Below, one piece after another: positions 22,901 through 33,354 of a stretch of DNA of 33,354 nucleotides. Below the pieces are notes generated by a model. It was not told where the DNA came from. It searched no databases and worked only from the letters and a program-made list of their open reading frames with translations. The stretch comes from Acidobacteriota bacterium. GTDB taxonomy: Bacteria; Acidobacteriota; Thermoanaerobaculia; Multivoradales; JAHEKO01. The DNA is taken from contig JAUVRX010000007.1 in NCBI GenBank assembly GCA_030597375.1, positions 1-33,354 on the forward strand, read 5' to 3'. Position 1 is the first letter of the stretch; each line of letters begins with the position of its first letter. A program made the translations under genes and the position numbers.

Positions 22901-23020
22901 GCGGATCCTCCACCAGATATCGAAGTCAAAGGCGGTTCTTGCGTAGACGCCTATTGTATGCTTGGCGCCGTTGGCGGTGTCAAGGTAACACACCACCAAA
23001 CTCCTTGAGGATGAGAGGTT

Positions 23021-23201
23021 TAGCCCGCATTATTCATGACCCCGCGAGCAGATTGTGGAAAGCGTCCGTCAGATCTGGTCATCCGCAGGGAGGAGCACCG
23101 GAGGCAACCTTGCGGGTTGTTGAGGAGCGACGAGCGAGGACGGCCTGAGATGGCGGGCGATCTCCGCTAGATGCCGCGGGGCTCATGAATAATGCGGGCT
23201 A
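23021..23201. mobile_element. MITE-like short element with perfect 19-bp terminal inverted repeats (copy 1, complete)
   Basis: TAGCCCGCATTATTCATGA (23021..23039) and TCATGAATAATGCGGGCTA (23183..23201); 161/169 identical to 33186..33354. Confidence 0.8.
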
Positions 23202-23321
23202 GGATGGTCGTCTCCAGTCGGTCCCAGAGCTCGCTTCAGGCCGCTTTCAGCTTGTCGCAGCCGGGGGCCTGTGGTACGTTCAAATCCTGTGCACGGAGTG
23301 CACTCAATGGGAGGACGGATC

Positions 23322-24553: not shown

Positions 24554-24584
24554 GTCGGAAGCTCGATAGTAGACTTTGGTGAGC

Positions 24585-26993
24585 ATGGACAACAGCACGT
24601 CGCGGGTGACCTCGGCGGTCTCTGAGACCGCACTCGAGCTGCCCGCTCTTCTGTCTCTAGCAGCAGAGCTGACGGTCACGGATGCGGGTCGCCTCCGTGT
24701 CGAGGGCCTGCGACCCTTTCGGCTGCAGGCCGAACTGGAGGGCCACAGGCAGCGACTATCCGAGGCGGCGGCGCTGCTCAATGACGGCAGGTTGGTGCAG
24801 GGCCTCGAAGAGCCGATCCTGCCGCTGCTGGAGAGCCTGGGACAGGGTGATGCCACTGTCTCCGGCCGACAGTTGGTACGCCTGGCCGAGGTGCTCGAGA
24901 GGACGCACGATGCGTGTCATCGGATCGCTACCCATGAATCCGAGTGTCCCGCCCTCGAAGATTTGAGGACGAGCCTGCCGGATACCGACCCGCTTCGCCG
25001 CCAGATCACCAAGACCCTGAATCAACGTGGAGGTGTGCGAGACGGTGCCACTCCCGCGTTGGCAGCGCTGCGCCGCCGATCACGTCGCATCAGGGATGGC
25101 CTTTACAAGAACCTCCAGGAGACCATTACCCAGCATGAGGAGCACCTGAGCGAGAAGACCGTATCCTTGAAGGATGGTCGCCTGATGCTCCTGGTCCACG
25201 CTGGATCCCGCGGTCGGCTCGAGGGGTTGGTGCACGGTCGATCCGGTACGGGGCAGAGCCTCTACTTCGAGCCGTTGAATGTCGTCGAGGCCAACAATGG
25301 CCTGCAGGAGACGCTGGAGGAAGAGGAGGCTGAGCGCCGCAGGATCCTGAAAGAGCTCGTGAATGAGGCTCGGGAGTCCCTGCCCGACCTGGAAGCCCAC
25401 GTCGAGTTCCTGGCCGAGCTCGACCTTCTGCAGAGCCTGGATCGATTCGCCGACCTATGTGTCGGCCGATTGGCTGAGATCTCCGAAAACCGATCACTGC
25501 GTCTCGTAGGCGCCAGGCATCCGCTGCTCGATCCCGGTCTGGCGGGGTTGAGGGAGGCAGCCCTGGGACAATCGGGTCACACGGAGCCCATCGTGCCACT
25601 GGACGTCGACCTCGACGAGAGCTGTCGCTTGTTGGTAGTCACCGGTCCCAACGCAGGTGGCAAGACCGTAGCTCTGAAGACTGTCGGGCTGCTGGCGGTA
25701 GCGCATCAGTGCGGGCTGCCGGTGCCTGTGGACAGTGGTACGCGATTTCCGTTTTTCTCCGCAGTGGTGGCCACCGTAGGCGACGAACAGGACCTGTTGA
25801 CCGATCGATCGACCTTCAGTGGTCGGCTGCTTCGATTGAAGGAGGCCTGGGAGCTGGCCGGCCCCGACAGCCTCGTCCTGCTCGACGAGCTGGGATCGGG
25901 AACCGATCCTGCAGAGGGTGCGGCCCTTGCCATCGCGCTGGTCGAGGAGCTCCTGGAAAAGGAATCTCTGGCGGTTCTCACGACCCATCTGTCACAGCTG
26001 GCTGCCATGGCGTTGGAGCGCCCGGGCGCCTCCTGCGCAGCCATGGAATTCGATTCGGAGACGGGTCGGCCGACCTACCACTTGCGTCCTGGGGCACCAG
26101 GTAGCAGCGAAGCGCTGGCGCTGGGTCGCAGACTGGGACTTCCCGCCGGCTGGCTCGAGCGAGCCGGGCAGCTCCTGGGGCCGGAGCATCGCAATCTGCA
26201 ACGACTTCTGCAGGAGGTCGAGGGTATCCGCAGGCAAGTGACGGAAGAGCGGACTCTCCAGGAGCGAAAGAGACTCGCTGTAGAGGCCGAGCTACAAGAG
26301 CTGTCGGATCACCGGGCGGCACTCGGGGAGGAGCGCCGCAAACTGGGCGCGAAGCTGAGAGAAGAACTGGATTCGTTCCGGCGAAAAGTCCGGGGTCGGC
26401 TAGAAGCCGAGCTCGAGACCATGCGGCAGCAGCTCGAAGCGGGCAGGAAGAAAGGGGTCACGGCGGCTTCTGTGGAGAGGCTCTTTCAGGAAGCACCGAT
26501 GGTCGCGCCGGAAGAACAAGTCATCGGAGAGCCGATCGCCGTCGGTGATGAAGTGCGACATTCGAGTCTCGGATGGGTGGGAACCTTGCGAGAGATCCGG
26601 GATACTAAGGCTGAGGTGATGGTGAGGGGTAAGCGATTCCGTTGTGAGCTGAAGGATCTGGGCCACGCCAGCGGTCCCGACACGGGCGCTGCTGAAGCAG
26701 CACCGTCCGTTCGCCTGTATCGTGAGGTAGAAGACGAAATGGAGCTCGACAAGGAGCTGAACCTCATAGGGCGGCGCGTGGAGCCGGCACTCGAAGAGTT
26801 GGACAGCTACCTGGATCGTGCTCTGCTGAGCCCCCACCGAGAAGTTCGAGTCGTCCATGGTTTCGGTACGGGCCGGTTGCGACGGGCGGTTCGTGAGTTT
26901 CTTCGGAATCACCCGGCGGTGTCGGCATCGAGACCTGGACGTGGCAATGAAGGGGGCGACGGAGCCACGGTGGTCACCCTGAGGAGTTCATAG
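24585..26993 (+). CDS. mutS2: MutS2-family ATPase with C-terminal Smr domain
   Basis: VTGPNAGGKTVALKTVGLLAV; LVLLDELGSGTDPAEGAALA; C-terminal LNLIGRRVEPALEELDSYLDRALLS...VRVVHGFGTGRLRRAVREFLRNHP. Confidence 0.94.
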   Translation: MDNSTSRVTSAVSETALELPALLSLAAELTVTDAGRLRVEGLRPFRLQAELEGHRQRLSEAAALLNDGRLVQGLEEPILPLLESLGQGDATVSGRQLVRLAEVLERTHDACHRIATHESECPALEDLRTSLPDTDPLRRQITKTLNQRGGVRDGATPALAALRRRSRRIRDGLYKNLQETITQHEEHLSEKTVSLKDGRLMLLVHAGSRGRLEGLVHGRSGTGQSLYFEPLNVVEANNGLQETLEEEEAERRRILKELVNEARESLPDLEAHVEFLAELDLLQSLDRFADLCVGRLAEISENRSLRLVGARHPLLDPGLAGLREAALGQSGHTEPIVPLDVDLDESCRLLVVTGPNAGGKTVALKTVGLLAVAHQCGLPVPVDSGTRFPFFSAVVATVGDEQDLLTDRSTFSGRLLRLKEAWELAGPDSLVLLDELGSGTDPAEGAALAIALVEELLEKESLAVLTTHLSQLAAMALERPGASCAAMEFDSETGRPTYHLRPGAPGSSEALALGRRLGLPAGWLERAGQLLGPEHRNLQRLLQEVEGIRRQVTEERTLQERKRLAVEAELQELSDHRAALGEERRKLGAKLREELDSFRRKVRGRLEAELETMRQQLEAGRKKGVTAASVERLFQEAPMVAPEEQVIGEPIAVGDEVRHSSLGWVGTLREIRDTKAEVMVRGKRFRCELKDLGHASGPDTGAAEAAPSVRLYREVEDEMELDKELNLIGRRVEPALEELDSYLDRALLSPHREVRVVHGFGTGRLRRAVREFLRNHPAVSASRPGRGNEGGDGATVVTLRSS

Positions 26994-28769
26994 ATGGCGT
27001 TGAGCAACATCCAACTCACGCCGCAGTTCGTTCAGGCTGTTCGGGACGTTGTGGATGTCGTCGATATTGCCGCCGAGCACACCCGTCTTCGCAAGAGCGG
27101 GCGGCGACAGACAGGCCGCTGTCCACTGCATCGGGAGAAGACTCCCTCGTTCAGTGTCGATCCGGAACAGGGGCTGTTCTATTGCTTCGGTTGCGGCCGT
27201 GGAGGTGACGCCATCAAGCTCCACATGCTGCTGAGTGGAGATGATTTTCCCGCTGCGATCGAGTCCCTGGCGCGCCGCTATGGGGTGCCCTTGCCGCCAC
27301 CGCGCCAACAGAGGGGTGGGCCTCGGGAGCCCGATCTGGAGCCGGCACTGGAGGCGGCGGCGCGGTTTTTCGTCGAGTCTCTCGAGCGCTCTCGAGAGAC
27401 CCAGGCCTACCTCGAAAAGCGCCGGATACCGCCGGAGCTGGTCGAGCGTTTCGGTGTCGGGTACGCTCCGGACGGTTGGACGAATCTCCTCGAGGCGCTG
27501 CATCCCCGAATCCCCCTGATCGATCTGAAAGCCGCAGGTCTCGTAGGCTTATCGCAGAAATCAGGTAAGCACTACGACCGCTTCCGTCAACGGCTGATGT
27601 TTCCGATCCGGGCGGCTTCGGGACGGCTCCTGGGGTTCGGAGGGCGCACCCTGGCCGACGATCCGGCGAAGTACATCAACAGTACTGAGACCGCTGCTTT
27701 CCGGAAGGGTCATGTTCTGTATGGAGTGGACCTTGCGAAGAGAGCCATTCGGGAGAGCAGCACGGCCCTGATGGTGGAGGGCTACTTCGATGTTGTGGGT
27801 GCGGTGGCCTCCGGGGTTGAAGCGACCGTGGCGACCATGGGGACGGCCCTTACCGAAGAGCAGACGCGTCTGCTGAGTCGCTTCTCGAGTGACGTGGTGG
27901 TGGGCTACGACGGGGACGAAGCGGGCGAGCAGGCTTTTCAACGAGCCCTGCCTCTGCTGTTGTCACAGGGCCTTACCGTGAGACGGGCGCGTTTCGGCAA
28001 GGATCAAGATCCGGACTCCCTGCGTACTTCGGCAGGGCCCGAGGCAGTCTTCGAGGCGGTGACCCAGGCGGAGGATGCGGTACTGATGGAGTTGGAGCGC
28101 CTGATTCCTCCCGCCGTCCACCAGGACCCTCGCCTGCAGGCCCGTGCCGGCAAGCAGGTGAGCGAGCTGCTGCTGTCCGTGCGTGACAGCATCCTGCGGT
28201 ACAGCTACAGTCGAAAGGCGGCGGATCGTCTCGGAGTGCCTGTCGAAATCCTGTTGCGGCGGCGGGTAGGGGGCAAGACGGACCCAGAGCCGGAACGACC
28301 CTCCCAGGAGTCGCAGACGGGACCCAAATTGGTGCGGAGCCTGGAGGAACAGGCTCTTCAGCTCCTCCTGGTCGGCGGCGAAGAGCTCCCCCCCCCCGGC
28401 GATCTGCCTGCCGCAGAGGTCTTCCTGATCCCAGAGTGTAGGAATATTTACAGGGCGTTTTGCGATCTATATAGAGGCGGAGGGGGGCGCCGGCCAGCGG
28501 CGAGAGAGGTTCTGGCCAGCGTACCCCTCGATAGCCAAGAAGTTGACCAAATGGCTCGCCTTCTGTTAGAAGGTTCGATCGCTGAAGAGGCGACGGGCTT
28601 GAGCGTGGCGTTGGGTCAATTGAACCGGCGCTGGTTGCAGCAATGTGTGCGGGCGCTCTCGAGCCAGATCTCCGAGGCCCAACGGGCCGGTGACGAAGGA
28701 CGTCTTCGGACCCTGCTAGAGGAGAAGACAGCTCTCAGTAGAGCTTTGCATGGCGGCCGGGAGGAATGA
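26994..28769 (+). CDS. dnaG: DNA primase
   Basis: Zn finger [33 protein letters not shown]; Toprim VEGYFDVVG and [11 protein letters not shown]; abuts mutS2 stop. Confidence 0.96.
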
Positions 28770-30486
28770 CATCTTGAGCACTTTGACCACTTCCGTTCCC
28801 GTCGAGGAGAAATTCCCGTCGGTGAGGCAGCTCACCGAACTGGGCAAGGAGAAGGGTTACCTACTCTACGACGAGATCTACGATCTTCTTCCTGACGAAA
28901 TCGTTTCTCTCCCAGATTCGCTGGACGCCATCTACCTTCGTTTCGGCGAGCTGGGAATCGACATCATCGACCGGCCCGATCGCTACCGAAACCGGGAGGA
29001 TCTGGATACCGGAGATTCGGCTTTCGTCAAGGCTGGCGAAGAAGTGCAGGAGTATGCGGTCACCGAGCAGGAGAAGACCAACGATCCGGTGCGCATGTAC
29101 CTGCGGGAGATGGGTACGGTGCCGCTGCTGGATCGCGACGGCGAGGTCGAGATCGCCCAGCGCATCGAACAGGGCGAGTGGACGATCTACGAATCTCTGT
29201 GTGGCAACCCGGTGGTACTGCGGGAGCTTCTGCGACTCAGCGAACTGGCCCAGCGCGACGATCGCGTCTTGATGCTGCTGACCACTAGTGACACCGACGA
29301 TGTGCTGGACTCCAAGGCGACCGATCGGATCAAGACCAATCTCAGGATCTTCAAGCGCATCGAAAAGAACGATCGGGCCATCGATACTCTGCAAAAGCGC
29401 CAGAAGCGCTTGAAGGGGGGTAGTCCGAAGTTCCAGGTGACCGAGCGCGAGATCGATCGATTGGTGGCGAAGATCGCCAAGGACATCCGCTCCATCGATT
29501 TCTCTCTCCAGACCCGCAACCAGTTGGTGGAGTTCCTGAAGGACCTCAATGCCCGATTCGTAGGTAATGAAAGGAATATCCGCCGGGCCAAGATCGCGCT
29601 CGACCGGGAGAAGAACAAACAACTCCAGTCGCTGCACCGGCGCCGTATCGACAAGTACCGCCGCAAGATCAAGGATCTGGAAGAGCGCTACGGCACGAGT
29701 CGCTCGGAGGTGTCGGCGACCATCAGCAAGATCAGGCAGGGTGAGGCACGCTGCGAGAGAGCCAAGGAGGAGTTGATCGTCGCCAACCTCCGACTGGTGG
29801 TCTCCATTGCCAAGAAGTACACGAACCGAGGTCTGCAGTTCCTGGATCTGATTCAGGAGGGCAATATCGGCCTCATGAAGGCAGTGGAGAAGTTCGAGTA
29901 TCGCCGCGGATACAAGTTCTCCACCTATGCCACCTGGTGGATTCGACAGGCGATCACTCGTGCGATCGCCGATCAGGCTCGCACCATCCGGATTCCGGTA
30001 CACATGATCGAAACGATCAACAAGCTGACGCGAACGAGCCGATCCCTGGTCCAGGAGTTGGGCCGGGAGCCTACAGCGGCCGAGATCGGCGCCAGGATGG
30101 ATCTATCGGCTTCCAAGGTGCGCAAGATCATGAAGATCGCCCAGGAGCCCATTTCCCTCGAGACCCCGATCGGCGAGGAAGAGGACTCACATCTCGGCGA
30201 TTTCATCGAAGACAAGAATGCCGCCTCTCCCGTGGACGCCGTGATTGGCAACAATCTGAAAGATTCAACTGGCGATGTGCTGACAAGCCTCACCCCGCGT
30301 GAGGAGTTGGTTCTCAGAATGCGCTTTGGCGTCGGCGATGGCTCGGAGCACACCCTGGAAGAAGTCGGGAGATCCTTCAACGTCACGCGCGAGAGGATTC
30401 GCCAGATCGAGTCGAAAGCCCTGCGCAAACTCCGTCATCCGAGCCGGGCGAGTCGGTTGAAGCCCTTTCTGGATGGCACCCATTGA
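28750..30486 (+). CDS. rpoD: RNA polymerase primary sigma factor RpoD (TTG 28774 is an alternative start)
   Basis: [133 protein letters not shown]. Confidence 0.97.
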
Positions 30487-30516
30487 GGTGGCGGCATCAT
30501 TCGTACCAGGCGGCGA

Positions 30517-30545
30517 TTGACAAAGCGGACTTCGGTTCCTAACAT
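30517..30545 (+). promoter_or_regulatory. Candidate sigma70 promoter of tRNA-Asn
   Basis: TTGACA - 17 nt - TAACAT, ending 32 bp before the tRNA. Confidence 0.6.
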
Positions 30546-30577
30546 CTCGCCTTTGGTGGCCCGAAGGGGCCTCATAT

Positions 30578-30652
30578 TCCTCGGTAGCTCAGCGGTAGAG
30601 CGGTCGGCTGTTAACCGACGGGTCGGGGGTTCGAATCCCTCCCGGGGAGCCA
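30578..30652 (+). tRNA. tRNA-Asn (GTT), CCA encoded
   Basis: TCCTCGGTAGCTCAGCGGTAGAGCGGTCGGCTGTTAACCGACGGGTCGGGGGTTCGAATCCCTCCCGGGGAGCCA. Confidence 0.96.
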
Positions 30653-32957: not shown

Positions 32958-33184
32958 GTCCTGGGTCCTGAAGCGGCCGGCGCCCTTGGCCACCAATGGT
33001 GCAGTTATCCAACGAGGTTTCCGATGGGAGGCCCGTCCGGGGTGTGAGGGGGGCCGGATCCCGGGGGAGAGCCTCGCGCGTGGCCCAATACGACCAAGAA
33101 CCCGGAGCCAAGACCTCGGATCCTCATTGCCTCACTGCTTCAAAGATCGACCGGGAGACAACGTCTGGCCACTTCAAGCCCTTA
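32958..33184. repeat. Intergenic composite repeat, locus E, bounded by diverged inverted modules
   Basis: Left GGGTCCTGAAGCGGCCGG; right CTGGCCACTTCAAGCCC (reverse complement GGGCTTGAAGTGGCCAG); internal 33062..33096 is the inverted match to 14181..14215. Confidence 0.6.
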
Positions 33185-33185
33185 A

Positions 33186-33354
33186 CCCGCATTATTCATG
33201 ACGCCGCGAGCAGATTGTGGAAAGCGTCTGTCAGATCTGGTCACCCACAGGGAGGAGCACCGGAGGCAACCTTGCGGGTTGCTGAGGAGCGACGAGCGAG
33301 GACGGCCTGAGATGGCGGGCGATCTCCACCAGATGCCGTGGGGCTCATGAATAA
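33186..33354. mobile_element. MITE-like short element, copy 2, truncated by the window end inside its right TIR
   Basis: Collinear with 23024..23192, 8 substitutions and no indels over 169 bp. Confidence 0.8.

Follow-up and report, generated by a model that had tools for sequence, protein, structure and literature searches.

MITE families in bacteria are usually reported from a single genus or family. Insertion sequences of the IS1380 family, like the distantly related eukaryotic piggyBac, generate 4-bp target site duplications (TSDs) and have CC..GG termini (PMC10045372). Both hallmarks, 5'-CC..GG-3' ends and a 4-bp TSD, were found in a short repeat element carried by an acidobacterial genome. 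The window analysed, 33,354 nucleotides in length, is the entire contig C32 of this genome (3.0 Mb in 323 contigs, a 92%-complete MAG). The element is most likely a MITE mobilised by the IS1380 family, with a conserved rod-shaped interior predicted to form an RNA hairpin (probability roughly 0.9). This reading rests directly on structure, dispersal, empty sites, TSDs, ends shared with IS1380, covariation and a fold that recurs across phyla; mobilisation in trans, transcription and an effect on host genes are what we infer beyond these results.

Structure of the element and its copies in the window

Positions 23021-23201 are bounded by TAGCCCGCATTATTCATGA and its exact reverse complement (19 bp on each side), which the earlier note had taken as terminal inverted repeats (TIRs). 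The repeat is indeed perfect over this length. Among 67 paired elements, however, 31 were flanked by an identical 4 bp on both sides with the consensus YTAR, and none by an identical 5 bp. As flank identity stops at 4 bp, the TIR proper measures 16 bp and the whole element 175 bp, the other 3 bp of the perfect repeat belonging to the TSD flank. Alignment of copy flanks, as the earlier note had proposed, thus defined a 4-bp YTAR duplication that replaces the TA duplication suggested there, in agreement with the empty site described below. The features are as follows.

23020..23023, no strand: left TSD, TTAG; a single TTAG stands at the empty site in genomes G001 and G002
23024..23198, plus strand: MITE copy 1, element proper, 175 bp
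23024..23039, plus strand: left TIR, 16 bp, CCCGCATTATTCATGA; identical to one end of the IS1380 elements L233 and L329
23040..23182, plus strand: conserved body with rod fold; 163.9 bits with covariance model R1
23100..23125, plus strand: central hairpin module GGAGGCAACC-TTGC-GGGTTGTTGAGG; occurs across phyla, with a covarying stem
23183..23198, minus strand: right TIR, 16 bp
23199..23202, no strand: right TSD, now CTAG, one mismatch to TTAG
33182..33185, no strand: left TSD of copy 2, TTAA, read from the sequence
33186..33354, plus strand: MITE copy 2, 169 of 175 bp, ending at the contig end
33202-33344: body of copy 2; 154.6 bits with R1

Copy 2 was 94.8% identical to copy 1 over 172 bp, from 33183 to the contig end, with 9 mismatches and 0 gaps (BLAST). 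One mismatch falls in TAG/TAA and 8 remain over 33186-33354, which matches the 8 substitutions without indels first reported for this copy. The stem extension CCCCGCG/CGCGGGG with its one-base bulge, also reported at that time, was present in both the DNA and the RNA folds. The single-stranded DNA fold of the element had a z-score of -6.05 relative to dinucleotide shuffles, and 70 TIR matches at up to 2 mismatches were obtained in the genome against 0 for a reversed control pattern. The element is thus a real feature, far beyond chance. Between the two copies lies an ordinary macromolecular synthesis cluster (24576-30652), in which genes for MutS2-Smr, DnaG primase and the RpoD sigma factor are consecutive and followed by tRNA-Asn.

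Dispersal, target sites and the IS1380 family

BLAST of the element against its own genome returned roughly ten copies, full-length or nearly so, at 91-96% identity in addition to many fragments. These copies sit in differing, unrelated flanks, several of them at contig ends, and MITE copies explain contig breaks in this MAG. A genome of the same genus (G001) gave 23 matches, and full-length relatives at 75-82% identity were found in other genera of the same family (G016, G010, G014 and G009). No match was obtained by BLAST in the sampled genomes from other families of the order. Shared copies and flanks also link G001 to records of the Acidobacteriota MAG CSMAG_2557, which places the organism in the Acidobacteriota.

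Empty sites were sought by joining the flanks of eight own-genome copies without the element and aligning these to genomes of the family. The joined flanks of copy 1 aligned over the whole 340 bp and without a gap in two sister species, at 84% in G001 (C548) and at 83% in G002 (C276). In both, the site reads GGT-TTAG-GATA, with one TTAG and the insertion absent. The site of the C186 copy is CTAG in G001 and CTAA in G002, and the remaining joined flanks also aligned across the insertion site with greater divergence. The element is accordingly a short, transposase-less MITE bounded by TIRs, as originally proposed: it measures 175 bp, is dispersed with a TSD, has TIRs at both ends that are common with autonomous IS elements, and is absent from the corresponding sites of sister species. 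The two outcomes that had been named as contrary to this, namely no further copies in the genome or copies always in homologous flanks, are both at odds with the copies found.

Of 114 non-redundant elements, 51 had identical 4-mers on the two sides, compared with a mean of 31.9 and at most 46 in 10,000 shuffles. Where the two TSDs of an element were discordant, the difference was asymmetric, in that the outer base varied and the TIR-adjacent base was the canonical G/C (21 to 6, p = 0.006, 114 elements). As a lead, this would be consistent with piggyBac-like chemistry, a 4-nt overhang travelling with the element, mutation and sampling being the alternatives. Mini-palindromes of 25 bp like TAGCCCGCATTATTCATGCGGGCTA were also observed at four unrelated places in the genome (G000 C1:618, C5:95446, C116:530 and C172:10059; L059, L088, L094 and L096). 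They look as if both element ends had been fused through an ATG repeat, and could be excision scars or minimal elements.

A search of GTDB genomes for the exact 19-bp pattern returned mainly Nitrospira among the matches listed, which also included Myxococcota, Gammaproteobacteria, Mariprofundaceae, Planctomycetota, Eisenbacteria, Thermodesulfobacteriota and others; among these listed matches the ends were mostly 130-350 bp apart. At up to 2 mismatches, 137 TIR matches were found in Nitrospira RSF3, 116 in a Mariprofundaceae genome of 1.8 Mb and 17 in the complete genome of Nitrospira moscoviensis, in which every TIR pair among those listed was short. MITEs bounded by this TIR number dozens per genome in Nitrospira and also occur in Gammaproteobacteria, Mariprofundaceae and other phyla. 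BLAST of the window element against plasmids and of a relative against phages gave no match. A contig from a viral collection (L223, IMGVR_UViG_3300015264_000082) was observed to hold, at 802-1043, an element of 242 bp that has this TIR in perfect copies; such a contig is a possible route between hosts.

Of 35 carrier genomes, 8 had transposases of the IS1380 family that scored above the cut-off of NCBIfam model NF033539. Four transposases above the cut-off (L230, L231, L233 and L235) are bounded by this TIR or a close variant of it, preceded by CTAG or TTAA, as is L238, a weaker partial match. Searching Acidobacteriota with one IS1380 transposase from a carrier genome yielded two-ended elements. 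Of these L329 is an intact IS1380 of 1693 bp, TTAG|CCCGCATTATTCATGA...TCGTGAATAATGCGGG|TTAG, with a TIR identity of 15/16, and L332, L341 and L344 have related ends. A further IS1380 transposase (L346) likewise has this TIR or a close variant at its boundary, and an IS1380 on a Bradyrhizobium plasmid has CTAG on both sides and the ends CCCGTCTTATTCAT. That intact IS1380 elements share both the ends and the TSD indicates that the mobilising family is IS1380, and the full-length IS sharing the TIRs that the earlier note proposed to look for is thereby found. In G016, of the family of the window, a CCTGC subtype is common to its MITEs and to its IS1380 end; the second end of this IS matches at only 12/16, which counts against the assignment, as does the resemblance of IS and MITE ends over the TIR only. 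Two Nitrospira IS1380 copies (L232 in G053 and L234 in G040) were considered as partner. Their ends, TCCCGGATTCCGCAGT, differ and mark a separate IS1380 subgroup, and they are probably not the partner of the MITE.

The element itself is too short to encode an IS1380 transposase, and no IS1380 match was found in its own 92%-complete genome; it is therefore an IS1380-type MITE and not an IS1380. As IS1380 transposases were also absent from the complete genome of N. moscoviensis, present-day mobility in these two genomes is unproven. Multi-copy IS elements assemble poorly, and an IS1380 fragment was found in G001. No shared ORFs were found beside solo TIRs, so that the solo ends are probably decayed copies and not IS ends.

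Two other origins were weighed against mobilisation by IS1380. A segmental duplication or host repeat that had never transposed would account for shared sequence alone; against the differing flanks, the empty orthologous sites, the TSDs and a TIR common to several phyla it has next to no chance. Mobilisation by another YTAR-targeting transposase, of IS5 or IS701 type, draws support from the use of YTAR-like sites by IS5 and IS701 elements too. The exact TIR and TSD are however carried by IS1380 elements, and the IS701 model gave no match over cut-off in 15 carrier genomes, which makes this origin very unlikely. For an element mobilised by IS1380, a DDE transposase of this family, encoded elsewhere at present or formerly, would recognise the 16-bp ends and insert the element at YTAR sites, thereby generating the 4-bp duplication.

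The conserved interior and its strand asymmetry

Sixteen interiors of 143 bp from across genera of the family were aligned, and about half of the columns were invariant. The interior forms one rod of 45 pairs, of which 15 covary by double changes. In this alignment 95.3% of cells were paired as opposed to 34-50% when the partner was slid, and the covariation score was 0.327 compared to 0.173 in shuffled alignments. Whole elements of Nitrospira and Gammaproteobacteria had the same fold architecture. At the centre is a hairpin, GGC-RTACT..AGTAY-GTYGAGG, whose stem changes (CAACC/GGTTG, CATACT/AGTATG, CGTACT/AGTACG) as GTYGAGG stays constant. This hairpin was present in 27 of 29 acidobacteriotal, 36 of 117 Nitrospira and 12 of 21 gammaproteobacterial elements, in 0.17% of shuffled interiors and in none of the five IS1380 copies examined.

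Covariance model R1, for which only Acidobacteriota interiors were used, also finds Nitrospira and gammaproteobacterial elements. In genome G052 it matched 44 places (best E = 4.5e-17), and the inspected elements had the same TIR. G023, of the same order as the window's genome, gave 29 matches; of three that were read, one had diverged IS1380-like ends and two had none. Rfam covariance models gave no match over the window copies at E <= 1, nor over elements at loci of other phyla at E <= 0.1. Interior conservation and a cross-phylum fold go beyond the earlier note.

Matches to R1 were also found between unrelated ends, GCAGGMTGCTCAAAA, in Nitrospira contigs (L108:4464-4604, L129:1564-1703 and L123:6795-6936), and a further Nitrospira match (L139:1404-1550) has yet other ends. 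In the window's own genome a second R1 body has the ends AGTGGGCTGTCATGCCTACAC (L025 and L100). The body is therefore not tied to one TIR. Ends of GCAGGMTGCTSAAAA or close to it were observed on the Nitrospira MITE-like elements L108, L129 and L123, and also L490, all with the same conserved body. A second element with the ends AGTGGRCTGTCATGCCTACAC and its own copy of this body lies apparently inside the MITE right arm at L011, L025, L100 and L024 (G000 C87, C5, C304 and C184).

With strand orientation fixed by the GTYGAGG motif and not by the fold, mean minimum free energy (MFE) was about -99 to -102 on the motif strand versus -78 to -89 on the other, the motif strand being more stable in all three groups. 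At opposite rod positions G.U exceeded A.C in three lineages (200:106, 133:38 and 106:13), and A.G was well above C.U on the motif strand; rods defined on the other strand had no comparable excess there. In these counts copies within a group are related and not independent, and rods are partly chosen by fold energy. The asymmetry is what RNA folding on one strand would leave, and with such a strand-specific fold the element may also act as RNA. The interior is no transposase-gene remnant; it is a conserved rod of 143 bp, central hairpin included, common to these MITEs. From a transcribed insertion site a long, stable RNA hairpin would form from one strand, and would probably affect the stability or termination of the surrounding transcript.

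The element could also be a MITE as described whose long fold is a by-product of its palindrome and has no RNA role, the arms being kept matched by template switching or by the needs of the transposase. MITEs are frequently palindromic, the fold forms in single-stranded DNA too (z = -6.05), and the orientation of the longest ORF upstream agrees only weakly with that of the motif strand (26 against 14 on crude ORF calls, a bias that is not significant). The strand asymmetry in G.U, A.G and MFE, seen in three lineages, with no comparable G.U or A.G excess in other-strand rods, argues against a by-product, as does the conserved body within MITEs bearing other TIRs; its chances fall somewhat short of even. 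A stronger version of an RNA role is offered tentatively and is, on balance, doubtful: that selection maintains the 143-bp body as a strand-specific structured RNA, carried as MITE cargo between phyla and changing carriers between IS1380-type ends and at least two unrelated kinds (GCAGGMTGCTSAAAA... in Nitrospira and AGTGGGCTGTCATGCCTACAC... in the window's genome).

Comparison with known systems

One TIR and one covarying body were traced over Acidobacteriota, Nitrospirota, Gammaproteobacteria and others, and tied to IS1380; a search of the open-access literature for the TIR and hairpin sequences, by words and short sequences, returned nothing relevant. A cross-phylum MITE tied to a named transposase family makes it testable why the interior of transposase-less elements stays conserved, and whether the chemistry of IS1380 is piggyBac-like.

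ERIC, Correia, QMITE2 and similar bacterial MITEs resemble it in size, in their palindromic fold, in a predicted transcript with a stable stem-loop and in having dispersed copies (PMC10969869); compared by description and not by sequence, the present element differs in that one TIR and body span several phyla. MITEPye1 of Paracoccus yeei likewise combines TIRs that match an IS family with a long stem-loop fold, but has IS1182-type ends and 1-3 copies per chromosome (PMC11578231). IS1380 itself (NF033539) shares with the element the terminal 16 bp, the 5'-CC..GG-3' termini and the 4-bp YTAR duplication, whereas the element is without a transposase and its interior shows no relationship to the examined IS copies.
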